From a virus: 64,000 nt of DNA. The notes beneath the pieces were generated by a model. It was not told the DNA's origin and did no database searches. It worked only from the letters and a program-made list of their open reading frames with translations. The DNA is taken from IMG/VR virus record IMGVR_UViG_3300034159_000051, positions 62,001-126,000 of that record. One strand, written 5' to 3'. Shown here piece after piece: positions 16,455 to 60,856 of the stretch. Both the position numbers and the translations under genes were made by a program. The stretch's first letter is position 1. Each line of letters opens with the position of its first letter.

Positions 16455-17153
16455 TTGAGCCAGCATGAATCTCTCACCTTGCTCGATCATGTTGTCGAGC
16501 ACGAGCGCCTTCAGGCCATCATCAACGACCTCAAGGCCGATCAGAAATCCGTCATCAAGGCGGCCCGCGCGCAGGGCTTTGATTCAAAAGGGTTTCGCGA
16601 GGTCATCAAATACTATCGCATGAGCGAAAGCGAGCGCGAGGAGTTTGAGGCCATTCGCGAGCTTATGATGCGCGAAATGGGCTGGCTGGCGGACACGCCA
16701 CTCGGCTCCGCCGCTATCCGCCGCTTTGAGAACGCCTACCTTCCAAAATCGCCTGAGAACGGCGCCAACGGCCATTCTGGGCCGCAGGAAGGCGGAGAAG
16801 CCCCAGAAGGCTCCGACGCCGCCCCGAAGCGTCCGGGCCGCGCACCGGCCGTCCCAAGGCCACCAGAAAAGACTCAAGAGGAAAAGGAGGCTGAACTTAA
16901 GGAAGAGTTCAGATTAGCTCTTGAGGCCGGGACTGAAGCCGGAAAGCAGTGGGTCGAAAACGGGCAAGACCCAAAATATGGCTTTTTAAGCAACCCGTAT
17001 CTTGGGTTTAACCCGTGTCGCCTTGAATGGGCCAAGGGTTGGCGCTCCGCAACGGGAAGCGATGGCATGGAGTTGCCGCCACACCTCAAAAGTAAAAAGA
17101 AACCCAAAAAGAAGAAGGACGACGACAAAAAAGACGGGAAGGATGGGGAATAA
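16455..17153 (+). CDS. GapR-like (DUF2312) DNA-binding protein with basic tail
   Basis: 232 aa, TTG start at 16455 after AAGGGATCAGAACA. The first 60 residues (ERLQAIINDLKADQKSVIKA, GFDSKGFREVIKYYRMS) match the GapR/DUF2312 domain, an alphaproteobacterial DNA-binding fold that clamps overtwisted DNA. A Pro-rich linker follows, then a second helical part and a Lys-rich tail (KKKPKKKKDDDKKDGKDGE). It may organise or relieve torsion on replicating phage DNA. Confidence 0.85.
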   Translation: MSQHESLTLLDHVVEHERLQAIINDLKADQKSVIKAARAQGFDSKGFREVIKYYRMSESEREEFEAIRELMMREMGWLADTPLGSAAIRRFENAYLPKSPENGANGHSGPQEGGEAPEGSDAAPKRPGRAPAVPRPPEKTQEEKEAELKEEFRLALEAGTEAGKQWVENGQDPKYGFLSNPYLGFNPCRLEWAKGWRSATGSDGMELPPHLKSKKKPKKKKDDDKKDGKDGE

Positions 17154-19465: not shown

Positions 19466-19533
19466 TTCAAAGCCGCGCCGGGGCCAAGCGCTGCCTGTAA
19501 CCCGATACCGGTTTTCTCTGGCGCGGCTTTGAA
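19466..19533 (+). ncRNA. 5'-leader RNA hairpin with 14-bp perfect stem
   Basis: TTCAAAGCCGCGCC (19466-19479) pairs perfectly with GGCGCGGCTTTGAA (19520-19533), enclosing 40 nt that can form an AACC/GGTT inner pairing. It lies in the leader of 19552 and ends about ten bases before its leader box, so it could control access to the ribosome site or be a separate small RNA. It does not fit the 50-nt array consensus. Confidence 0.6.
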
Positions 19534-19551
19534 CAAACGAAAGGGATCAGA

Positions 19552-20346
19552 ATGGAACACAACAAAGCAACGGAGACGCCAAGGTTCGCTACGCCTCCGG
19601 TGTTTGCCGTCTCTCAATTCGAAAAACAGCGCATGCTCATCCTCCATGCATGGTATTCCGATTTTATCGCTGAGGGCGGCAAGCCGGTTGAATTTATGCG
19701 CGAGGTTATCGTGCGTATCCACCGCGTTCAGACCGTTTTTGACGGCAAGCTGTCCGTCAACGCGTTGTTCGAACCCATCCCGCCCCGGGCGGATGATAAC
19801 CCCTTCGATTCCTCTTCGGCTGGCCCGGTTTCTGGCGCCGACGGCCACACCACCAACGCCAGCCGATCCCCCAATGAGCAGGGCCGAAAGGATGGCGCCG
19901 AAAGGCTGGTCGCTGATCGCCCTGCTCAGCATGAAAGCGCCTCCGGCCAGGAAGCAGACGCTCAAGGTCGCGAGCCGAGCGCCGGAAGCGCTCCCCAAGA
20001 CGGCGGGCGAGGTCATAATGACCTTGCCGGCAACGGCCGCCACGTTAGCGCCTCGCCCGTCCGTCGAAACACCGGTCCCAATGAGCTGCAGCGGGAAATC
20101 GCCCGAGAAGTCGCCCAATCGGCCGCCAAGACGATCCTGGAAACATTCCGGTTCGCGAACGGGTCCGCCCTCGGCGAGGTTTATCTTAACGACCTCGAAA
20201 ACTACGAGATGAAAAGCTCCGTTGACGCCTTTGTCGCCCGGCAAATCCGGCTCGCGTTCAAAGGCCACCCAAATTGCCGGGTCAAGGAGCTGCCTCTTGG
20301 GACCATTGAGGCGATCGTCAGCCGAGCCAACAAAGAGGCCGAGTGA
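19552..20346 (+). CDS. Two-domain hypothetical protein with an RNA-array insert as linker
   Basis: 264 aa, ATG 19552 after AAAGGGATCAGA. N-terminal helical domain (about 1-80, VEFMREVIVRIHRVQ) and C-terminal domain (about 175-264, VARQIRLAFKGHPNCRVKEL). The 85-residue linker between them is low complexity (Gly/Ala/Ser/Arg/Asp) because it is translated from four tandem array-type hairpin units (19816-20058). Overlaps the next start by one base. Function unknown; the insert is the notable feature. Confidence 0.75.
   Translation: MEHNKATETPRFATPPVFAVSQFEKQRMLILHAWYSDFIAEGGKPVEFMREVIVRIHRVQTVFDGKLSVNALFEPIPPRADDNPFDSSSAGPVSGADGHTTNASRSPNEQGRKDGAERLVADRPAQHESASGQEADAQGREPSAGSAPQDGGRGHNDLAGNGRHVSASPVRRNTGPNELQREIAREVAQSAAKTILETFRFANGSALGEVYLNDLENYEMKSSVDAFVARQIRLAFKGHPNCRVKELPLGTIEAIVSRANKEAE
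19816..20058 (+). repeat. Four array-type hairpin units inside a coding region
   Basis: Unit a 19816-19866 (stem TCGGCTGGC/GCCAGCCGA, inner GCC-GAC-GGC). Unit b 19876-19927 (GAGCAGGGC/GCCCTGCTC, inner GCC-GAAA-GGC). Unit c 19936-19992 (12-bp stem with one mismatch). Unit d 20005-20058 (GGGCGAGG/CCTCGCCC, inner GCCG-GCAA-CGGC). Linkers 9, 8 and 12 nt, as in the main array. All plus strand and in frame with the host gene. Confidence 0.8.
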
Positions 20347-21209
20347 TGGGCGAGGATATCGAAAGGCTCGTCGAGCAGATCCGCTATTGGCACCGGCAGC
20401 GCTGTTTCGCGATGGAACAGCGCAAGCGATCGGTTTTGGCCACGGCGGCTTTTTTGCGCATCGACCTCGGCTGGAACCCGGACCTTCCTAAAAAAGAGCG
20501 CGACGTCATCTCCGCCAAGGCGCTCGACATGCTTAAGCCGGGCGGCGTCGCCCCAGAACATCCTATGTTCGAAATGATCATGGCCTCCCATGCCGCGCGG
20601 GCGCCGTTTCTCGGCGTAGAGACAAAGGCGACGAAACAAATGGAAGCGCTCGCCAAGACGTTGCCGGTCTGGAACGCATGGGCGCGCGACGTCCGGGCGT
20701 TCGGCCCGCGATCGCTTGCCGTCATTGTCGGAGAGGCTGGAGACATTGGCTCCTACAGCACGCATTCGAAGCTTTGGAAACGCATGGGCCTCGCCGTCAT
20801 CAACGGCGTGCGGCAGGGCGGCCTGAAAAAGACGGCCAAAGCCTCGGAATGGATCGAGCACGGCTACAACGCCAAGCGCCGCGCATCGTCCTTTGTGATC
20901 GGAGATTGCCTTGTGAAGCAGGGCGCGGAGTTCCGCGAAGTCTATCTCGCCAGGAAGGAATATGAGCGCGCCAAGGCCATCGAGCGCGGTCTGATCGTTG
21001 CGCCGGCCGCCAAGATCCCAAAAGGCCAGGAGGAGCATTACATCTCCGACGGCCACATCCATAAGCGCAGCCAGCGCTACATGGAAAAGAAGCTCCTGCG
21101 CCGGTTATGGCAGGAATGGCGGAAGATCGGCAGGGAGGACATGACCCAACCTGGAGACGCCGACATCCCGCCGCTCGCTATGGAGCGCGTTAACGAGATC
21201 GCCGCATGA
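20346..21209 (+). CDS. Protein with IS110-type Transposase_20-like domain
   Basis: 287 aa, ATG 20346 directly after the previous stop. The middle (FGPRSLAVIVGEAGDIGSYS, KLWKRMGLAV, then RASSFVIGDCLVKQ) resembles the helix-hairpin-helix C-terminal domain of IS110/IS116/IS902 transposases. The N-terminal DEDD/RuvC domain is absent, so it is not a transposase. Conserved fold could bind DNA or RNA. Its stop lies six bases before the first array unit, so it may be co-transcribed with the array. Match is by eye and moderate. Confidence 0.65.
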   Translation: MGEDIERLVEQIRYWHRQRCFAMEQRKRSVLATAAFLRIDLGWNPDLPKKERDVISAKALDMLKPGGVAPEHPMFEMIMASHAARAPFLGVETKATKQMEALAKTLPVWNAWARDVRAFGPRSLAVIVGEAGDIGSYSTHSKLWKRMGLAVINGVRQGGLKKTAKASEWIEHGYNAKRRASSFVIGDCLVKQGAEFREVYLARKEYERAKAIERGLIVAPAAKIPKGQEEHYISDGHIHKRSQRYMEKKLLRRLWQEWRKIGREDMTQPGDADIPPLAMERVNEIAA

Positions 21210-21215
21210 GCGGCG

Positions 21216-22558
21216 CGCGGGAGGCCAGTTCAGCTACGCCGAGCGGCCGCTTGGTTATCGCCTCCCGCGACTCGGTTAAGCAGGGCCAGCGTACTGACGC
21301 CGAGAGGCTGGTTATGGATCGCCCTGCTTTCGAATCAGGAGAGGCCATTGGCTAAGAGCCGCAAGGACATACTGCATCCGCCTCTCCTTTCCTTTTTCTC
21401 GGGTCACAGCAAACGAGCCGATAGGCCACGTCAACCTTTCCCGAGAATCCGGTTAAGCAGGGCCTTGCCAATAGATCCGAAAGGCCATGGTCCGGACGCC
21501 CTGCTTTCCCTTTTGCGAGGCCCAACACCAGCCGCCGAAAGGCCATCCTTTCTGCGCCTCGCAATCCCTTTTCCTTGGGCCAATACGTTCGCGCGAAAGC
21601 CAAGCTCGCATCGCCCAAGGTTCCCACTTTGCGAGGCCAAACTCGCGCTGCCGAAAGGCCATGGTTTCAGCACCTCGCAATCCCCTATGGGCGGGTCCAA
21701 GTCTCGTCGCCGCAAGGCCGAGGACCGAATTCCCGCCCAACCCAACGACGGAAGGCCAGCGATCGCGCTCCATCGAAGGTCATCGAATTGGCGCCTTCCG
21801 TCCCCCTCATTCAAAGTTTGCCGGGCCATTCATGAATTGCCGCACAGCCAAAGAGCTAACGCCCGGCGCCTTCTTTGTAGGGCCAGAACTATCGCGCCGG
21901 AAGGCCGCGTCGACTCTGCCCTGCAAAACTATTTCGCGAGGCCAGCTAGCGATTGGCGAAAGCCCAAACCAAAAACGCCTCGCGATCCTCAACGACGGAA
22001 GGCCATATTACGCGCGCGCTACAGCGCCATGGACTTTTCGCCTTCCGTCTTTCTATTCAGAGTTTGCCAGGACAGCCTTCTAATGCCTAACGGCCACCCC
22101 TGCTTTTCCTGGCGCTCTTCACAAGAGTGGTCCCGTAGCTCAACTGGACAGAGCGCCAGCCTTCTAAGCTGGGTGTTGGGGGTTCAAGTCCCTCCGGGAT
22201 CGCCAACCCTTTGCCGGGCCGGATTACTATCGCCGCAAGGCTATCCACGAAGCGCCCGGCGATCCCTTTGCGAGACCTCCATACGGATGCCGAAAGGCCA
22301 AAAATGGGACGTCTCGCATCCCTACAGCCCGGCCACCTCCTGCGCGCCGAGAGGTCAGTCAAACCACGCCGGGCTACTTCTTGCAGGGCCAAATCAGATG
22401 CGTCGAGAGTCCATTTTTCCGGCCGCCCTGCATCCTATCCGCTTCGGCGGGCGCGCGGCCGCGGATGGAAAGTCGAAAGGCCGCCCTTGTCTTGCCGCGC
22501 GCAACCCTTTGCCGGGCCACTGCCTAAGCGCCGAAAGGTCAGGTTATCACTGCCCGGC
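21216..22558 (+). ncRNA. Array of 21 about 50-nt structured RNA units plus an embedded tRNA
   Basis: Units (outer-stem to outer-stem): 21216-21269, 21279-21328, 21337-21388, 21396-21447, 21456-21505, 21513-21564, 21573-21620, 21629-21680, 21688-21739, 21747-21802, 21820-21867, 21875-21926, 21934-21985, 21994-22049, 22066-22113, [tRNA 22129-22205], 22213-22260, 22269-22318, 22326-22375, 22382-22432, 22451-22502, 22511-22558. Each has a 7-11 bp outer stem that changes between units while pairing is kept (for example CGCGGGAGGC/GCCTCCCGCG, AGCAGGGC/GCCCTGCT, TTGCGAGGC/GCCTCGCAA), then usually CA, about 10 nt, an inner GCC-GNRA-GGC hairpin, CA and about 10 nt. The inner stem also covaries (GGC-GAAA-GCC at 21955). 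Linkers are 6-9 nt, sometimes 15-18. No family recognised. Confidence 0.85.
22129..22205 (+). tRNA. tRNA-Arg (TCT)
   Basis: 77 nt with encoded CCA. Acceptor GGTCCCG/CGGGATC (one G.T), anticodon stem CCAGC/GCTGG, loop CTTCTAA with anticodon TCT at 22163-22165, T loop TTCAAGT. It takes the place of one array unit: 15 nt after the previous unit and 7 nt before the next. Reads AGA, a rare codon in GC-rich alphaproteobacteria. Confidence 0.95.
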
Positions 22559-22583
22559 GATTCATTTACAAGGATGCGATTTC

Positions 22584-22883
22584 TTGAACGACTTTCCGAA
22601 AGCTCTCAATGAATGGCAATCCAAGCTCTACGATCTCGGATACCCGGGGCCTTATGAAGCGGGATCGATGATGATTGCCGCTACGCGAAAAAGAAGAATC
22701 GATAATTTTAGCCTTGTTAGATATTCCCCCAGGGACTGGCATGCCGAAGTAACATTCAAGCCCGACCAAAGGCCGGCAACTGTTGATCACCCTTATGGCT
22801 CCCTTGAGGGAAAGGGCAAGACCCCAGAAGAAGCCGTCGCAAATCTCATGATTGCGCATCCTGAACTTTGGCGGGTAGCATAA
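22584..22883 (+). CDS. Small protein inside the RNA array, 99 aa, TTG start
   Basis: TTG 22584 with AAGGA ten bases upstream begins LNDFPKALNEWQSKLYDLG; the product continues through SPRDWHAEVTFKPDQRP to stop 22883. A 511-codon open frame extends upstream to 21348 but that part is translated array and is not a gene. The compact fold-like sequence and ribosome site support a real gene interrupting the array. Function unknown. Confidence 0.65.
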   Translation: MNDFPKALNEWQSKLYDLGYPGPYEAGSMMIAATRKRRIDNFSLVRYSPRDWHAEVTFKPDQRPATVDHPYGSLEGKGKTPEEAVANLMIAHPELWRVA

Positions 22884-22893
22884 TGCATCCTCT

Positions 22894-23195
22894 TTGCGAG
22901 GCCCATGAACTGGAGCCGATCGGCCTCATATGATTCGCCTTGCAATCCGAACGACGAAAGGCCATCCGACCTACGCCGAAAGGCTAGTTTGTAATCGCCT
23001 TCCGTCACCCCTTCCGCCTCTGGCGGGCGCGCGGCCATACGGCCATAGCCGCAAGGCCACTGCAGCGTCGCCGCGCGCAAAGTTTGTCTGGCCTCCATGC
23101 GGACGCCGAAGGCCAAGCGTATAGCGCCAGACAAACCCATTCCGACGGGCCATGGGAGTCTCGCCGAAAGGTCGTTCTTCAGACGCCCGTCGGAA
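22894..23195 (+). ncRNA. Second segment of the RNA array, five units
   Basis: Units 22894-22945, 22953-23006, 23027-23078, 23082-23136 and 23140-23195. Outer stems include TTGCGAGGC/GCCTTGCAA (G.T pair retained), GCGCGCGGC/GCCGCGCGC, GTTTGTCTGGC/GCCAGACAAAC and TTCCGACGGGC/GCCCGTCGGAA. Inner hairpins GCC-GATC-GGC, GCC-GAAA-GGC, GCC-GCAA-GGC, GCC-GAA-GGC and GCC-GAAA-GGT. The last two units have 11-bp stems and only 3-nt linkers. Several stems repeat those of the first segment, pointing to duplication. Confidence 0.82.
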
Positions 23196-26541: not shown

Positions 26542-26619
26542 TGGTAGACTCGGCGGGAGTTGAACCCGCGACCTTGGAGTTAAAAGCTCCCTGCTCTAAC
26601 CGGGCTGAGCTACGAGTCT
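26542..26619 (-). tRNA. tRNA-Lys (TTT)
   Basis: Acceptor AGACTCG/CGAGTCT, discriminator A, encoded CCA. Anticodon loop CTTTTAA gives TTT. Standard D and T arms. First of four clustered minus-strand tRNAs, lying directly behind the promoter of the 26476 gene. Confidence 0.95.
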
Positions 26620-26629
26620 GCGTCGGTAA

Positions 26630-26704
26630 TGGTGCCCCCGCGAGGACTTGAACCCCGAATCTCCCGCTTACAAGGCGGATGCCTTACCGTTCGGCTACAA
26701 GGGC
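26630..26704 (-). tRNA. tRNA-Thr (TGT)
   Basis: Acceptor GCCCTTG/CGGGGGC with two G.T pairs, encoded CCA, anticodon loop CTTGTAA (TGT, reads ACA). 10 bp from the tRNA-Lys gene. Confidence 0.93.
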
Positions 26705-26837
26705 GCAAATTGTGAAAAGGGAAAGGACGGCGCGCGGACGCTGAAGCTTGGACGCTTAGCGTTTGGTGGTCGTTCGTGTCTTTCGGGGCGCGGTCATCAT
26801 TCTGGATGGATAGCCTGTTTTGGTGACCGGGTCAAGG

Positions 26838-26913
26838 TGGCTGGAGCGGAAGGACTCGAACCTTCGCGTGGAGGCTTCAAAGGCCCCTGCCTTACCAACT
26901 TGGCTACGCTCCA
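26838..26913 (-). tRNA. tRNA-Gln (TTG)
   Basis: Acceptor TGGAGCG/CGCTCCA, discriminator G, encoded CCA, anticodon loop CTTTGAA (TTG, reads CAA). 133 bp separate it from tRNA-Thr; nothing is recognised in that gap. Confidence 0.94.
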
Positions 26914-26915
26914 AT

Positions 26916-26993
26916 TGGCGCGTTCGGCAGGACTTGAACCTGCGGCCCCCGGTTTCGTAGACCGGCGCTCTGATCCAACTGAGCTACGAACGC
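26916..26993 (-). tRNA. tRNA-Arg (ACG)
   Basis: Acceptor GCGTTCG/CGAACGC, encoded CCA, anticodon arm CCGGT-CTACGAA-ACCGG (ACG, wobble-reads CGN). Two bases from tRNA-Gln, so the two are processed from one transcript. Confidence 0.95.
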
Positions 26994-27385: not shown

Positions 27386-27572
27386 GGTCCGATCCCTTGT
27401 TTTTCTCGGCGAGGTAGCTGCGCATCGCCTCCGCAATAGATTCCGGCACCTCATTGAGGCGCTGATACCGCCATAGCGTTGTATAATGGAGGCGCAACCG
27501 TCGACAGAGAGGCGCTTTCCAGCGCCGCCCGTAGAGTTTTATGGCCGCTTGTTCGAACTCGGCCCCTGTCAT
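27360..27572 (-). CDS. Small HTH protein, 70 aa
   Basis: ATG 27572 overlaps the TROVE stop (ATGA). KLYGRRWKAPLCRRLRLHYT followed by TLWRYQRLNEVPESIAEAM reads as a helix-turn-helix that would bind DNA. Translationally coupled to the Ro60-like gene, so possibly its regulator. Confidence 0.72.
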   Translation of the reverse strand: MTGAEFEQAAIKLYGRRWKAPLCRRLRLHYTTLWRYQRLNEVPESIAEAMRSYLAEKNKGSDRESLRTDN

Positions 27573-29209
27573 CCCTGGATGAAATCCCTGATCAGGGTTG
27601 GGACGGCTCCATCCATCCCGGCGATATCCAGCATGCCGCCGTCGTTCGGGTCTGCGATCGAGAAGTTCGTCGCGGTCATCGCGGCGACGATCAGTTTCGC
27701 CGGGATGCCGGATTTCTTGCGGTAGCTCTGCAAAGCCTGGACCGGGTGAATATCTCCGAACCACGTTTCGTTGTCCGTCCAGATCACGAAGGCGTCGTAT
27801 TTCCATCCGTGCTTTTCCGCCTCGATCATCGGTAAGGCGCAGTCAGTGCCTCCCATTTTCTGGGTTGCGATATAGGCGACCACGTCATCGAGACGCTGAC
27901 GCGGAGAGATCTGCATCGGCGTCAGGCCGCAGCCGATCTTGCCGTGATATACGCCATCAAACCGGCTCGGATACGGCCCCGTTGTGAAGCCGTAGCAGGT
28001 CGCATTCGGCTCAATGGCGAGCGTCGACAAGGCCATCGCCGCCGACGCCTCACGGCACGACAGGGCCGATCCTGCGATCTGGTCCGTCATGGATCCCGAC
28101 AGATCGAGAGAAACCATGATGCGCTTGTTCGTCGGATCGACGTTCTCAAATGCGGCGTAGAACGCTTCGTCCAGGGCATCGACGATGCGCGGGACCGGAG
28201 TCCAGGATTTTCCGCCGCGCACGCCGTGTCCGCTCCTATAGACGACAAGCGCCTGCAAGATCGAAAACGGATGCACGCGTTCGGCGCGCAGGTCATCCTT
28301 GAGCCGGAGCGCGACGTGTTGCCAGTTCTGCGGATCGATCGCGCCGCACGATGTCATCGTCGCGAGGTTACGGATCAGGGCCGTCAATTTGAGGTGAGGA
28401 ACCATCGCGCGCCAGACGTTCGGGTCGGTGAGCGCCTCGGTCGGGATCGCCTCCCACGGCAGGCGGTGGATCGCTATCAGGGCGCGCAAAAGGCGGTTTT
28501 GCTCCGTGTCCGAAACATCAAGATCCATCGCCTGAATGTGGGCCTGCACAATCGGCGGCAGGTCGGCGTGGTTATGCTCTTTCCCGCGCGCCCAAAGGTA
28601 AAGCGCCTGTCTGGAGACGTCGTCGCCTGCTCCGCGCCCGGCCAGCTCGATTGCGCGCTTGTGCGTGAAGCCAACATTAGACCGGTACTTGATCATCTGA
28701 TAGGCGAGCTGTTCAGTTGTCCGCGCCCGATACCACGCTGCGATGACGCGCTTCATGGCGCGGCTCGAAAGACCGCGGCCGAGGCCCTCGCAATCTTTGA
28801 ACCACTGGAAAAGCGTGCTCGCTGTGCGGCATACTTTCGGAACCATAGCGAAGGCGGCGCGGCGCGCTTCGTCATTATCCATCGAGGCGGCTCCGAGCGC
28901 GAGCGCGAAGATCCCGGCGTCTTGTTTGGCCGCACGCCCTTCGTGGGAGATTTTGGCGATCGCCTCGGCTGTGCGCCACGGGTCCGCGGCCCAGCACGAA
29001 AGGACGGCGCCGGCGTTCTCGCGGGTCAGGTTTTTGGCTTGCTGGTAATAGGTCGATTCAGAGCTGCCAAGCTTAATGAATCGATCGAGACGGGTCCAGT
29101 CATCGACCGGGAAGGCGTAACCGCCGGCGTGGTTCGGAACCTGGATTCGGTTGGGAATCGGCTCGTTTTGCGACGTTCTGTTTGGGGAATAAAGTTTCGT
29201 GTAAGACAT
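27569..29209 (-). CDS. rsr: TROVE-domain protein (Ro60/Rsr homologue)
   Basis: 546 aa. N-terminal TROVE domain (about 25-350) made of HEAT-like helices: GYAFPVDDWTRLDRFIKLG, ESTYYQQAKNLTRENAGAVL, then ALALGAASMDNDEARRAAFA and YRSNVGFTHKRAIELAG. C-terminal vWA domain with MIDAS DLSGSMTDQ (about 370), GGTDCALPM and WTDNETW. Ro60 rings bind Y RNAs and ends of misfolded RNAs and can steer a nuclease. Full length for the family. Four Y-RNA-like units lie immediately upstream on the same strand, as is usual for bacterial rsr loci; the ATG is 65 bp from the last unit. Confidence 0.93.
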   Translation of the reverse strand: MSYTKLYSPNRTSQNEPIPNRIQVPNHAGGYAFPVDDWTRLDRFIKLGSSESTYYQQAKNLTRENAGAVLSCWAADPWRTAEAIAKISHEGRAAKQDAGIFALALGAASMDNDEARRAAFAMVPKVCRTASTLFQWFKDCEGLGRGLSSRAMKRVIAAWYRARTTEQLAYQMIKYRSNVGFTHKRAIELAGRGAGDDVSRQALYLWARGKEHNHADLPPIVQAHIQAMDLDVSDTEQNRLLRALIAIHRLPWEAIPTEALTDPNVWRAMVPHLKLTALIRNLATMTSCGAIDPQNWQHVALRLKDDLRAERVHPFSILQALVVYRSGHGVRGGKSWTPVPRIVDALDEAFYAAFENVDPTNKRIMVSLDLSGSMTDQIAGSALSCREASAAMALSTLAIEPNATCYGFTTGPYPSRFDGVYHGKIGCGLTPMQISPRQRLDDVVAYIATQKMGGTDCALPMIEAEKHGWKYDAFVIWTDNETWFGDIHPVQALQSYRKKSGIPAKLIVAAMTATNFSIADPNDGGMLDIAGMDGAVPTLIRDFIQG

Positions 29210-32276: not shown

Positions 32277-34148
32277 TTAGCCCGGAAGCTGCCAGAGTGT
32301 CTCGCCCCCGTTCATTTGCGGCGTTGCGACCACAAAACGGGCGCGCCGGAGTCTGTACAGCGTCGCCCGGCAAACGCCAGATTCCGCGAGTAGCCGGCCA
32401 GTTGGCAGCGGTCCACATTTTAAGGCGCGCTCGACCTGCTCTTCGGCGGTCTCGGCCTTTTGTGGATTCAGGTCCGCGCGCGCCTCAAGCGCGAGCTGTT
32501 TTTGTGGTCGGTCCCGTAGCAGCGCCGCGCCTCCGCCGACGACATGGTTGGCCGGTCCGGGCTGGCCGCGAGCGCGCTGGATCGCATCCCGGATGTCGCG
32601 CGCGGTCACATTCGGCCCCTGGATGCGCTGGAGCTTGCGGCCCTCGACCATCAGGAGCATATCGCCTTGGCCGAGGAGCTGCTCGGCTCCCGCCTCGCCG
32701 ATGATCGTGCGGCTGTCGATCGCCGACGTCACCTGAAAGCTGATCCGGCTCGGGAAACAATTCTTAATCGTGCCCGTCACCACATCCACACTCGGGCGCT
32801 GCATCGCCATGATAATATGGACGCCGGCCGCGCGGCCCATTTGGGCGATCTGCTGGATAATGCCCATAAGCTCCGGCCCGGCCGTCTCGACAAGTTGGGC
32901 CATCTCGTCGATAACGACCGCGAGGTAGGGCATGGGCTCGCCGTAGCGACCTTCATTGTATTCGGAGATTTTGCGGACGTCGTACCGCTCCATGATCTCA
33001 TATCGGGTTAACATTTCTTGGCGCACGCGCTCAAGAGCCGGGACGGCCATCTCCGGGTCGGTGACGACCGGCAATGCAAGATGCGGGATGCCGTTGTAGC
33101 GCGTCAGCTCCAGCCGCTTTGGGTCGATCATCACGAACCCGATCTCGGCGGGCGTCAATGTCGCCAGGATGGACAGGATCATCGCCTGCAGGCCGACCGA
33201 TTTCCCGGATCCGGTAGTTCCGGCGATCATCAGGTGCGGCATGGTTTGCAAATCCGCGACCACAAGCGATCCGTTGATTGCCTTTCCGAGGGCGAGCGGG
33301 ATTTCCGCATCGGTGGTTCGGAAGGCGGCCGAGGCGACCACATTCGAGAACTTAACCTCTTCGCGCGTTTCGTTCGGAAGCTCGATCGCGATCGAGCTGG
33401 AGCCGGTCGACGTATTGACGCGCACGCCATCGACGCCCAGCCTGGACGCAAGGTCGCTGGCCATGCCGACGACGCGGCTCGCGCGGATATGGGACGCCGC
33501 CTCGACCTCGTAAACCGTGACGGACGGTCCAACCTTCGAACCGACGAGCCGGGCCTCTATCCCGAACCCGCGCAGGGATTCGATCACGGCGCGGCCTTTC
33601 GGGTCCATTTTTGCGGCGGCCGTTCTCTTCTTCGCGGCGTCGGGCGATGCGAATTGCGGCGGCCGGCTCACGGATGCAGGCTCAAACCGCTTGAGCGCGA
33701 CGACCTCGCGATGTCGGATTGATCCCGGCAATGGGAATAGAAACTCGGTATCATGCCCGCCGATGGCGCTGATCGCCGATCCGGCAAGCGCTTGCGCGCG
33801 CCGCGCATCAAGCTGATGGATCAGGCGCCACAGGAACGTGAGGTAAGGGCCGGCCTGGACCGCAGCCATCGCGCGCGCCGGAAATGGGCGAACATTCTCG
33901 ACGTGCGTCTCGACGGCGATATGGCTCGTGTACTGCAGATCGCGCACCAGGACGCAGACGCCGGATGGATGCCGGATATTGGCGGCCAGCCATTGTTTTG
34001 TCTCTAGCGCGCCCGGCGCAAGCCGGATCGGCTTTTTCCCGACGACGATCGTCCAGAACTGTGCGCTCCCCTTCGGCGCGAATTTCAAAAGGAAATCGAA
34101 GGCCGCTTTCGCGGCTCTCTGATCTTCATCAGAGGCTATCTTCCCCAT
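32277..34148 (-). CDS. FtsK/SpoIIIE-type DNA translocase
   Basis: 623 aa. N-terminal alpha domain, then Walker A GTTGSGKSVGLQ (about 300), MIDPKRLELTRYNGIPHLAL, Walker B LAVVIDEMAQLV and QIAQMGRAAGVHIIMAMQRP as in FtsK. The C-terminus ends in a winged-helix gamma-like domain (LLAESGVCRATLYRLRRARF). It would pump double-stranded DNA. No N-terminal membrane helices; the adjacent 34129-35313 membrane protein may supply the anchor (20-bp overlap). Confidence 0.9.
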   Translation of the reverse strand: MGKIASDEDQRAAKAAFDFLLKFAPKGSAQFWTIVVGKKPIRLAPGALETKQWLAANIRHPSGVCVLVRDLQYTSHIAVETHVENVRPFPARAMAAVQAGPYLTFLWRLIHQLDARRAQALAGSAISAIGGHDTEFLFPLPGSIRHREVVALKRFEPASVSRPPQFASPDAAKKRTAAAKMDPKGRAVIESLRGFGIEARLVGSKVGPSVTVYEVEAASHIRASRVVGMASDLASRLGVDGVRVNTSTGSSSIAIELPNETREEVKFSNVVASAAFRTTDAEIPLALGKAINGSLVVADLQTMPHLMIAGTTGSGKSVGLQAMILSILATLTPAEIGFVMIDPKRLELTRYNGIPHLALPVVTDPEMAVPALERVRQEMLTRYEIMERYDVRKISEYNEGRYGEPMPYLAVVIDEMAQLVETAGPELMGIIQQIAQMGRAAGVHIIMAMQRPSVDVVTGTIKNCFPSRISFQVTSAIDSRTIIGEAGAEQLLGQGDMLLMVEGRKLQRIQGPNVTARDIRDAIQRARGQPGPANHVVGGGAALLRDRPQKQLALEARADLNPQKAETAEEQVERALKCGPLPTGRLLAESGVCRATLYRLRRARFVVATPQMNGGETLWQLPG

Positions 34149-56016: not shown

Positions 56017-56664
56017 ATGGCAAGGAAACCGATAAAGGGATCAGAACCACAGTGGCCGGCCTATAATGTAGAGCGTCGCCCGATCACCGAGCTTCGTCCT
56101 TACGAAAAGAACCCGCGCACACACAGCGCTTCGCAAACGACCCAGATCGCGGCGTCGATGCTCGAATTCGGTTGGACCTTCCCGGTCCTGATCGATGAGA
56201 AAGGCGAACTGATCGCCGGTCATGGACGCATCCAGGCGGCATTCATGCTTGTGACGGGCGGGTTCGAGCTTGGCGGCTCCATCCAGCCGCCACGCCCCGA
56301 GTTCACCGAGGCACCCTGCATCGTCGCCAAGGGTTGGACCGAGGCGCAAAAGCGCGCCTATGTCATTGCCGACAATAAACTCACACTCAACGGCGGATGG
56401 GATGAAGACCTCCTTAAAGTCGAACTGGCCGAACTGAAAGACTTCGGCTTCGATCTCGCCCTTACCGGCTTTGCCGACGATGAACTAAACTTGATCTTTC
56501 ATGGCTGGTCATCGGACATCGATCTGATCGACAAGCATGGCGAAAACCTCGACGGCATCCTCGCCACTCTCAAAGTCAAGGTCGATCAGGAAGCGACCGA
56601 GATCGCTAAGGCTGCGATCATCAAGGCGCTCGATGAGAATGGGCTGAAGTATGAGCTTGTCTGA
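56017..56664 (+). CDS. ParB/Srx-fold protein of the deazaguanine operon
   Basis: 215 aa. NVERRPITELRPYEKNPRTH, FPVLIDEKGELIAGHGRIQA and RAYVIADNKLTLNGGWDEDL match ParB-like domains commonly fused to phage DNA methylases; here the methylase is missing. A leader box AAAGGGATCAGAA lies inside the first codons (56034), so translation may begin elsewhere than ATG 56017. It overlaps the DpdA-like gene by 14 bp. Confidence 0.8.
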   Translation: MARKPIKGSEPQWPAYNVERRPITELRPYEKNPRTHSASQTTQIAASMLEFGWTFPVLIDEKGELIAGHGRIQAAFMLVTGGFELGGSIQPPRPEFTEAPCIVAKGWTEAQKRAYVIADNKLTLNGGWDEDLLKVELAELKDFGFDLALTGFADDELNLIFHGWSSDIDLIDKHGENLDGILATLKVKVDQEATEIAKAAIIKALDENGLKYELV

Positions 56665-57508
56665 TGATGAAGGGCGGAGGCTCAATCTTCTTGTAGCCTA
56701 CCCTTATATGACCGCCAGCATCATCAAGATTTTAGCCGAGAATCAGAGTCGAGTCCGGTTCCTTCTCGATTCCGGCGCTTTCACTGCCTGGAAGGCGGGC
56801 AAGCCAATCGCGATTGATGATTATTGCCGGTTTATCGAAAACCTGCCGATCAAGCCGTGGCGATATTTTACGCTCGATGTCATCGGCGACCCCGCTGGCT
56901 CGCTCAAGAATTATGAAATTTTAATCAAGCGAGGGTTTAAGCCAGTTCCGATTTTTACGCGAGGCGAAAGCCCATCGGCGCTCGATGAGTATTACAAAAC
57001 CTCGGACGTGGTCGGCATTGGTGGGTTGGTCGGAACTCAGAAAAATCGCGGCTTCGTTAATGGCATCATGAAGCATGTTGGCAAGCGTCGGGTCCACTGG
57101 CTCGGGTTCACTAGCACCGAATATCTCAAGCAGTATCGGCCCTATATGTGCGATTCCTCATCCTGGGCCGGGGCGCTTATTTTTGCTTCCTTGAAAATCT
57201 ACGACAAGGGCGGGCGGTTCGTTGCCTGCCAGAAAAAGGACTTCGTTCGGCATCCATCGCCAGATATCGTGCGCCTTCTCCGAGAATACGAAATCGACCC
57301 CATGCTTTTTGCTAAAGCGAGCAATTGGAAGAACTCAGGCAAAGGCGATTATCCTACCGAAATGGTAGCGTTTCGATCCTTCGTGAAATTTCAGCGTGAA
57401 GTTGGGACCGAACTCGGAACCAAAATATTCATGGCCGTCGCATCTGATTGGCAGACGAAACTCTCGCTTGAAGCTTACGATTTTTGGGATCGCAAGCGAG
57501 TAGCCTGA
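56651..57508 (+). CDS. dpdA: DpdA-like DNA 7-deazaguanine transglycosylase
   Basis: 285 aa. TGT-like barrel: FLLDSGAFTAWKAGKPIAID, YFTLDVIGDPAGSLKNYEIL, VVGIGGLVGTQKNRG, then VHWLGFTSTEYLKQYRPYMC and DSSSWAGALIF. Phage DpdA proteins are tRNA-guanine-transglycosylase relatives that swap guanine in DNA for a deazaguanine; preQ0 synthesis genes follow directly. Asp in LDSGAF/LDVIGD fits the catalytic aspartates. Confidence 0.88.
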   Translation: MSLSDDEGRRLNLLVAYPYMTASIIKILAENQSRVRFLLDSGAFTAWKAGKPIAIDDYCRFIENLPIKPWRYFTLDVIGDPAGSLKNYEILIKRGFKPVPIFTRGESPSALDEYYKTSDVVGIGGLVGTQKNRGFVNGIMKHVGKRRVHWLGFTSTEYLKQYRPYMCDSSSWAGALIFASLKIYDKGGRFVACQKKDFVRHPSPDIVRLLREYEIDPMLFAKASNWKNSGKGDYPTEMVAFRSFVKFQREVGTELGTKIFMAVASDWQTKLSLEAYDFWDRKRVA

Positions 57509-57651
57509 GCGATTCAAAGCTGCATTTCGGTCTGTGGTTTTTGGCGATGAAAAAGTCAACACCTTTTTTGTATTAAGCAACGCGAAGCATTATCCAATCC
57601 CCTCGAAGCAGTTTAGGGTCCTCTCGAATTCAACCTTTAGACGGGGGTCTA
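57509..57651. other. Gap before queC
   Basis: 143 bp; no convincing promoter of the shared type and no clear preQ1 aptamer. GACGGGGGTCT lies close to the queC ATG. Confidence 0.35.
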
Positions 57652-58443
57652 ATGACGAAAGCACTTGTGGTTCTTTCAGGTGGGCAGGATAGCACGACGG
57701 TTCTATTCTGGGCCAAGCAGCAATTCGATGAAGTTCACGCGATCACCTTCGACTATGGGCAGCGGCATCGTTGCGAGATCGGCGCGGCAAAGAAGGTTGC
57801 GGAGCTGGCCGGGGTTGCCTCGCATGAGGTGATTGTTGTTGGGCCGCTCTTAAGCGGGCGCTCGCCTCTTACAGATCCCAGCACGGAGCTTGAAACCTAT
57901 ACCGACTACGCCAGCATGGACGCGACGATTGGCGAGCGCCGGGAATTGACCTTCGTTCCGATGCGTAACGCCTTCTTCCTGACGCTTGCGGCAAACCGGG
58001 CCGAAGTTCTTGGATTACATGATATCGTGACCGGCGTTTGCCAGATGGACAATGCCAATTACGATGACTGCCGCAAGACGTTCGTCGCCGCGACCGAGGA
58101 TTACATCAATAAGGCGCTCGGCCATGACCATCGCGGGACGCCACCAATCAAAATCCATACGCCGCTGATTGATTTGTCGAAGGCTGAGAGCATTCACTTC
58201 GCGCAGACGCTTCCCGGCTGCATGGAGGCCCTGGCCTATTCTCACACCTGCTACGCCGGCGAGTATCCGCCGTGTGGCAAGTGTCATGCCTGCGTGCTGC
58301 GTGCTCACGGGTTCGAGGAAGCGGGTGTTCCTGATCCGCTTGTCCTTAGAGCGTATGGTGCTGCGGCTTCCCATACCTTGCCAGAAACCGCAAACTATGA
58401 CGAAGAGAGACAAAAAGCACGTTTGGGTGGCTTGCTCGCATGA
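57652..58443 (+). CDS. queC: 7-cyano-7-deazaguanine synthase
   Basis: 263 aa. PP-loop SGGQDSTTVLFWAKQ (residues 9-23), ITFDYGQRHRCEI, FVPMRNAFFLTLAA, and zinc ligands CYAGEYPPCGKCHAC. Makes preQ0 from CDG. Ends by overlapping the folE start (4 bp). Confidence 0.95.
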   Translation: MTKALVVLSGGQDSTTVLFWAKQQFDEVHAITFDYGQRHRCEIGAAKKVAELAGVASHEVIVVGPLLSGRSPLTDPSTELETYTDYASMDATIGERRELTFVPMRNAFFLTLAANRAEVLGLHDIVTGVCQMDNANYDDCRKTFVAATEDYINKALGHDHRGTPPIKIHTPLIDLSKAESIHFAQTLPGCMEALAYSHTCYAGEYPPCGKCHACVLRAHGFEEAGVPDPLVLRAYGAAASHTLPETANYDEERQKARLGGLLA

Positions 58444-59129
58444 TTATCGATCAACCCGTCTCAAAGACGGTAAGCGCCCGCCTTCGTGCTGAAGGTATCC
58501 GCTTCTTCGCTAATGACGCCATCGGTGAGCATCTTCGTCCGGGTGAAGCCGAAGCCCTTGAAGCCGAAGTGGCGCAAGTTGCCGGGGCAATGCTCGATGC
58601 GCTGGTGATTGACCGCGCAGAGGATCATAACACCAAGGGAACGGCGAAGCGACTCGCCAAGATGTTCGTGCGGGAAATCTTTCGGGGCCGGTATCAGCCA
58701 AGGCCGGACGTGACCGACTTTCCGAACGTGAAGCATGTGGACGAGCTTTACACGGTCGGTCCCATCACTGTCCGGTCAACATGCTCGCACCATTTCGCGC
58801 CGATTATGGGAAAGGCTTGGGTAGGGGTGATCCCCTCCGAGCGCGTCATCGGTTTGTCGAAGTTCAACCGGCTTATCGATTGGGCCATGAGCCGCCCGCA
58901 GATTCAGGAAGAGGCGGTTGTCATCGTCGCAGATCTGATCGAAGAGGCGATCCAGCCGCGTGGCCTCGCCGTGGTTATCAAGGCTGAGCATCTGTGCATG
59001 ACCATGCGCGGCGTTCGCGAGCACGAAACCAACATGGTGACATCCGTTACGCGCGGCCTGCTTCGCGAAAGACCGGAAGCTCGCGCCGAGTTCTTCTCCA
59101 TCATCAAGGGGCAAGGGTACTCCGCATGA
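58440..59129 (+). CDS. folE: GTP cyclohydrolase I
   Basis: 229 aa. DHNTKGTAKRLAKMF, STCSHHFAPIMGKAWVGVIP, GLSKFNRLIDW and EHLCMTMRGVRE with zinc ligands Cys and His of type IA enzymes. First step of preQ0 synthesis. ATGA overlap with queD. Confidence 0.95.
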   Translation: MIIDQPVSKTVSARLRAEGIRFFANDAIGEHLRPGEAEALEAEVAQVAGAMLDALVIDRAEDHNTKGTAKRLAKMFVREIFRGRYQPRPDVTDFPNVKHVDELYTVGPITVRSTCSHHFAPIMGKAWVGVIPSERVIGLSKFNRLIDWAMSRPQIQEEAVVIVADLIEEAIQPRGLAVVIKAEHLCMTMRGVREHETNMVTSVTRGLLRERPEARAEFFSIIKGQGYSA

Positions 59130-59551
59130 GCGCCATTACAGCATCGCGCTACCACGACATCAGTTGTGGACACCGGGTTTACGGCCACGAAAGCAAGTGT
59201 CGACACGCGCACGGCCACAACTACCGCGTGCATTTTAACTGTCTCGCGCCAAGCCTTGATGAGATCGGCCGGGTGATCGACTTCTCGGTGATCAAGTCCA
59301 TGCTCTGCGAATGGTTAGAAACGGAGTGGGATCATAAGTTCCTGCTCTGGGAGGAAGACCCCGGCGCGGAGATCATGCGCCAGTTCGATGCCGAGTCCGT
59401 CAAGCTGGTCCCCTTCAATCCAACTGCCGAGAATATGGCGCGCTACCTCGTTGAGATCATCGGCCCGCAGCAGCTCGCCGGAACTGGCGTCACCCTTCAT
59501 TCGGTCACGATAGAGGAGACGCGCAAGTGCAGTGCAAGTTACAGCATTTGA
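59126..59551 (+). CDS. queD: 6-carboxytetrahydropterin synthase
   Basis: 141 aa, start MSAITASRYHDISCGHRVYG. Cys and zinc ligands in CGHRVYGHESKCRHAHGHNY, then IDFSVIKSMLCEWLETEWDH and PTAENMARYLVE. Second step of the pathway. Confidence 0.93.
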   Translation: MSAITASRYHDISCGHRVYGHESKCRHAHGHNYRVHFNCLAPSLDEIGRVIDFSVIKSMLCEWLETEWDHKFLLWEEDPGAEIMRQFDAESVKLVPFNPTAENMARYLVEIIGPQQLAGTGVTLHSVTIEETRKCSASYSI

Positions 59552-59949
59552 CATGGCTCGATTTTCAGGACGCGGTTGACGTTCTGTCGACCTATGTCAG
59601 GCCCGGCGCGACCGGAATATTCGGCGAGGCCCGCGGCGGGCTTCCGCTTGCTGTCGCCCTCAGTCATCGCACGACGCTGCCTTATCTTCGCGAGCCGGAC
59701 GCCAATATGATCTGGGTCGACGACATCATCGATTCTGGCGAGACCTTCAGTAAACGCCGCATCGATTTTCCGCGAGCGCAGTACCTCGCCTGGGTTGGTC
59801 GAACAAGAGCGATGGGGGCCTCGATATCCATCGCGCGCATCATCAAAAGCGACTGGATCGTGTTTCCGTGGGAAGACAAGGCCAAGGCTGCGCGGGACCG
59901 CACGGATTATCTCAAGCGCAGGGAGACGGCCAATGCTTTACCCGGTTAA
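59527..59949 (+). CDS. Phosphoribosyltransferase-like protein, GTG start
   Basis: 140 aa. GTG 59527 has GAGGAG seven bases upstream and overlaps queD by 25 bp. IFGEARGGLPLAVALSHRTT and WVDDIIDSGETFSKR form the PRPP loop of type I PRTases. An extra member of a deazaguanine operon; perhaps base or nucleotide salvage. The substrate is not evident. Confidence 0.8.
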   Translation: MQCKLQHLTWLDFQDAVDVLSTYVRPGATGIFGEARGGLPLAVALSHRTTLPYLREPDANMIWVDDIIDSGETFSKRRIDFPRAQYLAWVGRTRAMGASISIARIIKSDWIVFPWEDKAKAARDRTDYLKRRETANALPG

Positions 59950-60604
59950 CGAGATCTTTGAGAGCATCCAGGGCGAGGCGACCTGGACCGGAACGCCAAG
60001 CGTTTTTCTCAGATTGCAAGGCTGCGACATAGGATGCCCGTGGTGCGACACAAAGGCGTCCTGGATGCCGGCGTCGAGCCCGGAAGCCAAAGCGCTGAGC
60101 CTTTCAGAGATCCTCGCCAAAACGGACGCCGCCGCGACCTTCGCCATCCTCACAGAGAAGCAGATCGCAGCGATGCTCAAGACCAATTTCAGCGCGCGCC
60201 ATATCGTGCTCACTGGCGGAGAGCCGTGTTCGCACGACCTCATGCCTTTGGCCGAGGAGCTGCTCTGCGAGGGGTTTGGCGTCCAGATCGAGACGTCCGG
60301 CGCCTACGAGATCAAGGCTCCGGACGCCGCCTGGGTGACCCTTTCTCCAAAGATCGATATGCCGGGTTCTGCCGGGCCGCTCATCAACTCGCTCCTGCGC
60401 GCCGATGAAATCAAGATGCCGGTTGGCAAGATCGGCGACGTTCTTCGGTTGCAATCGCTCCTGCCGCACATCAGGCCCGGAACGTCGGTTTGGCTCCAGC
60501 CCCTTTCGCAGTCCGAGAAAGCGACGTGGGTTTGCATCAAGGCGGCGACGAAGAATGGGTGGCGCTTGTCGCTTCAGACTCACAAATTTATCGGAGTGCG
60601 CTGA
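59933..60604 (+). CDS. queE: 7-carboxy-7-deazaguanine synthase (radical SAM)
   Basis: 223 aa, ATG 59933. NEIFESIQGEATWTGTPSVF, LRLQGCDIGCPWCDTKASW gives the radical SAM cysteines, VLTGGEPCSHDLMPL and ETSGAYEI follow. Converts CPH4 to CDG. Last gene before the operon terminator. Confidence 0.95.
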   Translation: MLYPVNEIFESIQGEATWTGTPSVFLRLQGCDIGCPWCDTKASWMPASSPEAKALSLSEILAKTDAAATFAILTEKQIAAMLKTNFSARHIVLTGGEPCSHDLMPLAEELLCEGFGVQIETSGAYEIKAPDAAWVTLSPKIDMPGSAGPLINSLLRADEIKMPVGKIGDVLRLQSLLPHIRPGTSVWLQPLSQSEKATWVCIKAATKNGWRLSLQTHKFIGVR

Positions 60605-60609
60605 AACAG

Positions 60610-60657
60610 AAAAAGGAAGCCCGGCGAAGGTGGCAGACGCCGGGCTTCCTTTTTTTT
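60610..60657 (+). terminator. Operon terminator
   Basis: AAGGAAGCCCGGCG-N11-CGCCGGGCTTCCTT, a 14-bp stem, then a long T run. Ends the deazaguanine operon. Confidence 0.95.
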
Positions 60658-60856
60658 ATCATCCCGAGGCAAATCGGTAGAAAGACTATGCCTGATTTGC
60701 ATAAGTGACGCAAGCCGGCGGCCAGAACGCGCCAGAAAAAATATCCACAGGCCCTTTGAATTCCCTTGATATTCATCCGACGGTAATGTAGCTAAAAAAG
60801 CATGGGTCGCAATCTCTAAGGCTGCGTGCTCGGCTTTTCTCCCGATAAGTCATCGC
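60658..60856. other. Non-coding gap
   Basis: About 200 bp between two terminators. No gene, promoter of the shared type or repeat recognised. Confidence 0.4.

Follow-up and report, generated by a model that had tools for sequence, protein, structure and literature searches.

We found that an array of RNA hairpins and the gene directly upstream of it form a stem-loop TIGR-TasA system on the genome of a tailed phage, an identification to which we assign a probability of about 0.97. TIGR arrays are paired-guide RNA arrays, first described in 2025 (Faure et al. 2025, PMC12045711), and the window analysed here (64,000 nucleotides, positions 62001-126000 of a virus record of 129,260 bases in total) holds a large new member of this known kind. 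The original prediction had described the hairpins as a candidate undescribed RNA system. This proved wrong, because the array shows every published feature of stem-loop TIGR arrays that can be tested from its own sequence, together with the expected neighbourhood (PMC12045711). Three observations are new beyond the main text of that paper: units lying in ORFs, turnover of spacers in place and target matches in Brucellaceae.

The array begins just behind the end of tasA and is broken up by a tRNA gene and a small ORF:

20343-21209, plus strand: tasA (start GTG at 20343 or ATG at 20346), whose 288-aa product is an RNA-binding protein of the Nop type and lacks a nuclease domain

21216-23195, plus strand: main stem-loop TIGR array, 26 units of 48-56 nt each, linkers mostly 3-8 nt

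21216-21269, plus strand: unit 1, the type example, with P1 CGCGGGAGG, box C CCA, spacer A GTTCAGCTA, box D CG, loop CCGAGCGG, box C' CCG, spacer B CTTGGTTAT, box D CG and P1' CCTCCCGCG

22066-22114, plus strand: unit 15, the final unit ahead of the tRNA gene, with box C ACA and box D TT

22129-22205, plus strand: tRNA-Arg(tct) between units 15 and 16 (ARAGORN, Rfam)

22585-22883, plus strand: probable small gene between units 21 and 22, with a TTG start after AAGGA (from sequence, ORF list and translation)

23140-23195, plus strand: unit 26, the final unit (from the unit listing)

The 26 plus-strand units originally placed at 21216-23195 were borne out with unchanged coordinates. Each consists of an outer stem (6-10 bp), box C (CCA or near), spacer A, box D (CG or near), an inner hairpin, box C', spacer B, a second box D and the returning outer stem; the inner hairpin was CC-GNRA-GG in most units of the main array. 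The spacers, two variable 9-nt stretches per unit between the conserved CCA and CG boxes, had been overlooked. Their length was 9 nt in 51 of the 52 slots (spacers A and B, 26 units). Among the 22 units of equal layout, the spacer windows carried about 0-0.26 bits per column, compared with up to 2 bits for boxes and inner stem. Earlier suggestions of decoy or sponge RNAs or of Ro60 substrates found no support; the units resemble dual-spacer guide RNAs. The tRNA-Arg gene at 22129-22205 (plus strand) lies within both the array and the open frame described below, and cuts by RNase P and RNase Z could aid processing of the array.

In the published description of TIGR systems, box C is CCA and box D is UG, the two spacers pair with opposite strands, and the boxes may diverge if both ends change together (PMC12045711). 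Here the gene for a Nop-domain Tas protein adjoins the array, box C and box D frame two spacers in each unit, their 9 nt falling in the expected range of 8-12 nt, and variable but palindromic stems replace the edge repeats. Box C CCA was kept and box D was mostly CG at both ends in the window; TG was found in many relatives. The constant edge and loop repeats of dual-repeat loci were absent, with outer stems varying from unit to unit. A CRISPR array was rejected, near-identical direct repeats of about 25-36 nt being absent, and an Rfam search of the window returned only tRNAs at gathering score.

Covariation was scored by comparing units of one array, using 22 units of equal layout (21 from the main array and one from the upstream ORF). 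Outer-stem cells were paired in 96.8% of cases versus 80.7% after shuffling, and the covariation score was 0.448 versus 0.131, a value reached by 0/500 shuffles. There were 35 double changes in the outer stem compared with 9.3 in shuffled sets, and both sides were altered in 7 of the 10 stem pairs. When the partner was shifted by one column, pairing fell to only 36-51%. Conserved RNA structure with covariation, as first proposed, was thus confirmed between units of one array, and the proposal that the array grows through duplication and drift was also judged right.

Scanners for the unit plan detected, also on the plus strand, five upstream units that had been overlooked (19466-20061), giving 31 guides in the window. 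Four of them (19816-20061) lie within a 264-aa ORF. A shuffled genome contained 0 sites scoring at least 21; the units at 19816 and 20002 scored 21.0 and 21.5. The features of this region and of the open frame are:

19466-19533, plus strand: probable extra unit upstream of the 264-aa ORF, less certain, AGCGCTGCC / ATACCGGTT

19552-20346, plus strand: 264-aa ORF of a conserved family preceding tasA, with units in its middle part (blastp)

19816-19866, plus strand: extra unit in the 264-aa ORF, GGTTTCTGG / CACCACCAA

19875-19928, plus strand: extra unit in the 264-aa ORF, AAAGGATGG / GTCGCTGAT

19942-19986, plus strand: extra unit in the 264-aa ORF, with a short stem and less certain, GGAAGCAGA / CGAGCCGAG

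20002-20061, plus strand: extra unit in the 264-aa ORF, TAATGACCT / CCACGTTAG

21210-22560, plus strand: stop-free stretch of 450 codons in the tasA frame, running through units 1-21

The 264-aa ORF matched the upstream ORFs of loci L018 and L015 (blastp, 1.7e-10 and 1e-4), and among relatives 31 units in 15 loci were nested inside such tasA-preceding ORFs. The tasA frame, whose openness had likewise escaped notice, contains one TGA (21207) and is then open for 450/450 codons, tRNA included. An open tasA frame through units 1-21 was reached by 0/2000 shuffles of spacers and linkers among slots; dinucleotide shuffles were also made. In relatives L018, L030, L032 and L039 the tasA frame itself continues through the downstream units. 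No comparably clear open-frame bias was found in mycobacteriophage or Brucellaceae arrays. Our guesses at the cause are read-through, ribosome protection or escape from Rho termination. Guides in reading frames would be an unusual case, with the same DNA used for protein sequence and for guide RNAs.

The product of tasA scored 106.9 bits (cut-off 100) against NCBIfam NF052498 TIGR_Tas_endo ('TIGR-Tas system RNA-guided endonuclease') and matched TasR 9mty with E=3e-9 in phmmer. It also matched the phage family phrog_4285 and had no Pfam hit. When its AF2 model (pLDDT 92) was compared with PDB folds, the top 11 matches were TasR/TasH, followed by IS110 recombinases. TasR and TasH are marked by a nuclease domain, RuvC or HNH, joined to the Nop part; such a domain is absent here. 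The 288 residues are almost all helical and leave no room for RuvC or HNH; the protein is therefore TasA. An alignment of eight TasA proteins was too diverse for a profile scan. The original prediction had linked the hairpins to the phage's own Transposase_20-like protein, and the link was right: the gene is TasA, judging by NCBIfam and the TasR/TasH fold.

Several other genes were observed in the window. A Ro60-like protein with TROVE and vWA domains is encoded at 27569-29209 (minus strand), near a cluster of four tRNAs (26542-26993). The region 56017-60680 is a probable 7-deazaguanine operon, perhaps for DNA modification against restriction; it includes a queuine tRNA-ribosyltransferase-like gene (56651-57508), and a QueC-like ORF (57652-58443) and a ParB-like ORF (56017-56664) were both judged by eye. 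A GapR-like DNA-binding protein (16455-17153, plus strand) is unusual for a phage and fits an alphaproteobacterial host. An FtsK/SpoIIIE translocase (32277-34148, minus strand) is also unusual for a phage.

Homologous arrays, which the original prediction had suggested seeking in related phages, were recovered: the plan P1-CCA-N9-(T/C)G-loop-CCA-N9-(T/C)G-P1' occurs beside TasA in more than 30 phage and prophage loci. TasA relatives accompanied by such units turned up in viral contigs, in Rhizobium phage RHph_X2_25 and, as part of prophages, in Aminobacter, Rhodoplanes, Hyphomicrobium, Falsochrobactrum, Brucella and other genera. TasA was also present in 76 mycobacteriophage records, some of them annotated 'transposase'. 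In mycobacteriophage loci L011 (5827-6537) and L061-L071, genes annotated as 'transposase' or hypothetical encode TasA and are preceded by about five stem-loop guide units. Microcystis phage Mvi-JY20 (L012, 6500-6900) carries an unannotated dual-repeat TIGR array directly downstream of its TasA gene.

Comparison of these loci showed spacers being replaced in place while their stems persist, as expected of guides under changing selection. In unit slots shared across 11 mycobacteriophage loci, in which tasA differs by 2.8% on average, differences per site came to 0-3% in stems but 56-70% in spacers, against an expectation of 75% for random sequence. Slots with the same stem in Brucellaceae prophages differed at 76% of spacer sites. 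A few spacer pairs persist, among them the guide GGTGAAAGC/GTCATAATT, which was retained in two Brucellaceae prophages (L209 and L213) whose TasA proteins are 70% identical. Drift of whole units is disfavoured, because it would alter stems and spacers alike.

We infer transcription, processing, DNA binding and silencing, as well as the action of the window's own spacers. The array would be transcribed and cut in the linkers, each hairpin yielding one guide RNA of about 50 nt; expression and processing at linkers have been demonstrated for a stem-loop TIGR array with 13 units (PMC12045711). A TasA dimer may then hold the guide RNA at both of its box C/box D pairs, spacers A and B each pairing with a different DNA strand, and the dimer would open and bend its DNA target. 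Given such opposite-strand pairing, which is taken from the work on TasR, one strand of a target should carry the sequence of spacer A and, immediately after it, spacer B in reverse complement.

Matches in this arrangement were found among Brucellaceae prophages. One guide, carried by a Brucella daejeonensis prophage, has an exact match in B. pseudintermedia, at codons 9-15 of a tyrosine integrase gene on the same contig as a TasA gene, about 33 kb away; this site recurs with one difference in another TasA prophage (36.7 kb), in its terminal integrase gene. Another guide, from a second guide-carrying prophage, has a match with one mismatch in that B. pseudintermedia region, within a small ORF ahead of a primase gene. 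For a guide from a third guide-carrying prophage, the match is to a 75-kb TasA prophage, again with one mismatch, and lies 10-27 nt before the start of a major capsid gene. With 73 guides and 473 kb of sequence, these three guides matched at no more than one mismatch as A plus the reverse complement of B with gap 0, the evidence having been found stepwise, with the first match prompting the follow-up and the choice of part of the target set. The 35 other combinations of geometry and gap gave 0 or 1 guide each, and same-strand spacer arrangements gave no matches at gap 0 for the Brucellaceae guides. Shuffled pairings gave at most 2 guides, with 0/2000 reaching three. All single mismatches are compatible with G.U pairing, and allowing G.U brought the cases to four, the added one involving two phages from the clade to which the window belongs. 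We regard the Brucellaceae matches to rival TasA prophages as suggestive rather than proven; the relatives yield first hints that guides may be aimed at rival prophages.

The signal is confined to TasA prophages, because Brucellaceae-type guides showed no excess over decoys in 398 whole genomes of the family (8 real versus 10 decoys). The window's guides matched their own genome at the level of shuffled pairs (four orientations, gaps 0-2), and its 31 guides had no target in 1.9 Mb of related phages. Against 398 Hyphomicrobiales genomes, exact matches numbered 2 for real and 2 for decoy pairs. One window guide, CCTCCTGCG / GTCAAACCA, matches L207 1501-1518 exactly, 16-33 nt before the start of an IS110 transposase; as the match rate equals that of decoys, this is probably chance. 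There was no excess of targets in the related loci first collected, nor for mycobacteriophage guides in six of their own genomes. Six mycobacteriophage guides had no full 18-base match in 50,697 phages, and one searched against 2.9 million viral contigs gave three metagenome matches, at chance level. A guide with an attachment-site-like resemblance to a tRNA D-arm, GTAGCTCAG/TCTATCACG (Falsochrobactrum prophage L019, unit at -186 from the start of the TasA match), was dropped, its best match having 2 mismatches. A literature search found no later papers on TIGR targets, preprints being outside its scope.

Taken as a whole, it is very likely that a solo-Nop TasA works with a transcribed array of snoRNA-like guide hairpins and bends and blocks its targets. 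Silencing of rival prophages is suggested because TasA has no nuclease and the matched sites lie at or near gene starts, and silencing had been considered for TasA by Faure et al. (PMC12045711); taken separately, the claim that TasA in this way silences genes of rival phages or prophages stands at even odds. Our fuller proposal is a tentative one, a shade below even: temperate phages would use these systems as mutual RNA-guided silencers, with guides binding rival TasA prophages where genes start or close by (integrase, early operon, capsid), spacers replaced in place and, in Hyphomicrobiales phages, guides carried in protein-coding genes of the tas operon. The same machinery could instead act on genes of its own phage or host, in regulation, integration or partition. 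Faure et al. proposed that nuclease-less TasA aids integrases or blocks transcription or replication (PMC12045711), self-targeting would be non-lethal for a protein unable to cut, and the D-arm-like Falsochrobactrum guide, with its 2 mismatches, points the same way. We consider this rather unlikely, since neither the window phage nor the mycobacteriophages gave self matches above shuffled pairs, host chromosomes showed no excess, and fast spacer turnover better suits an arms race than housekeeping regulation.

That the hairpins guide TasA to RNA, like box C/D sRNAs, with a partner recruited to modify or block it, seems improbable. The Nop fold and box C/D layout are indeed common to snoRNPs, and a tRNA and the Ro60 gene are nearby; however, TasR was inactive on RNA in vitro (Faure et al. 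2025, PMC12045711), and the Brucellaceae matches require spacers on opposite strands. Bridge RNAs of a phage-carried IS110-type element would explain the distant fold similarity of TasA to IS110 recombinases and the shared internal-loop guide layout. This is very hard to reconcile with the absence of any Transposase_20 or IS110 transposase match anywhere in the virus record, the score of TasA against the IS110 model (16.5 bits, cut-off 140), the missing catalytic domain and the presence of many single-loop units, not one two-loop RNA. Equally implausible are non-functional structured repeats or decoy RNAs, given spacers fixed at 9 nt, boxes retained beside TasA in more than 30 loci and stems that stay as spacers turn over.

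Faure et al. listed as open questions what these systems target in nature, what TasA does without a nuclease and how spacers arise (PMC12045711). The relatives supply candidate natural targets in the predicted geometry and evidence of spacer change in place. Mycobacteriophages carrying the system grow on a standard laboratory host. The value of these results lies in testable leads on targets and guide change.

Archaeal and eukaryotic box C/D guide RNAs with Nop5/Nop56/58 share the dyad box C/D layout and the Nop fold with the window's system, but their RUGAUGA/CUGA boxes and kink-turn were not seen in its units. IS110 transposases and their bridge RNAs share the Nop-like RNA-binding fold and guides split within an internal loop; the window differs in having no DEDD recombinase and an array of single-loop guides. 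Dual-repeat TIGR arrays (TasR/TasH) are closer in their 9-nt spacers A and B, CCA box C and homologous effector core, whereas the window has no fixed edge or loop repeats, longer outer stems and no RuvC or HNH. The TIGR-TasA of a Peromyscus leucopus gut contig (PMC12045711) likewise has a solo-Nop TasA and short linkers, and its hairpins combine palindromic stems that vary with two spacers set between box C and box D. Unlike that contig with its 13 units, the window has 31; most of them have CC-GNRA-GG as inner stem, their box D is mostly CG, a tRNA gene lies within the array and many units fall in open reading frames.
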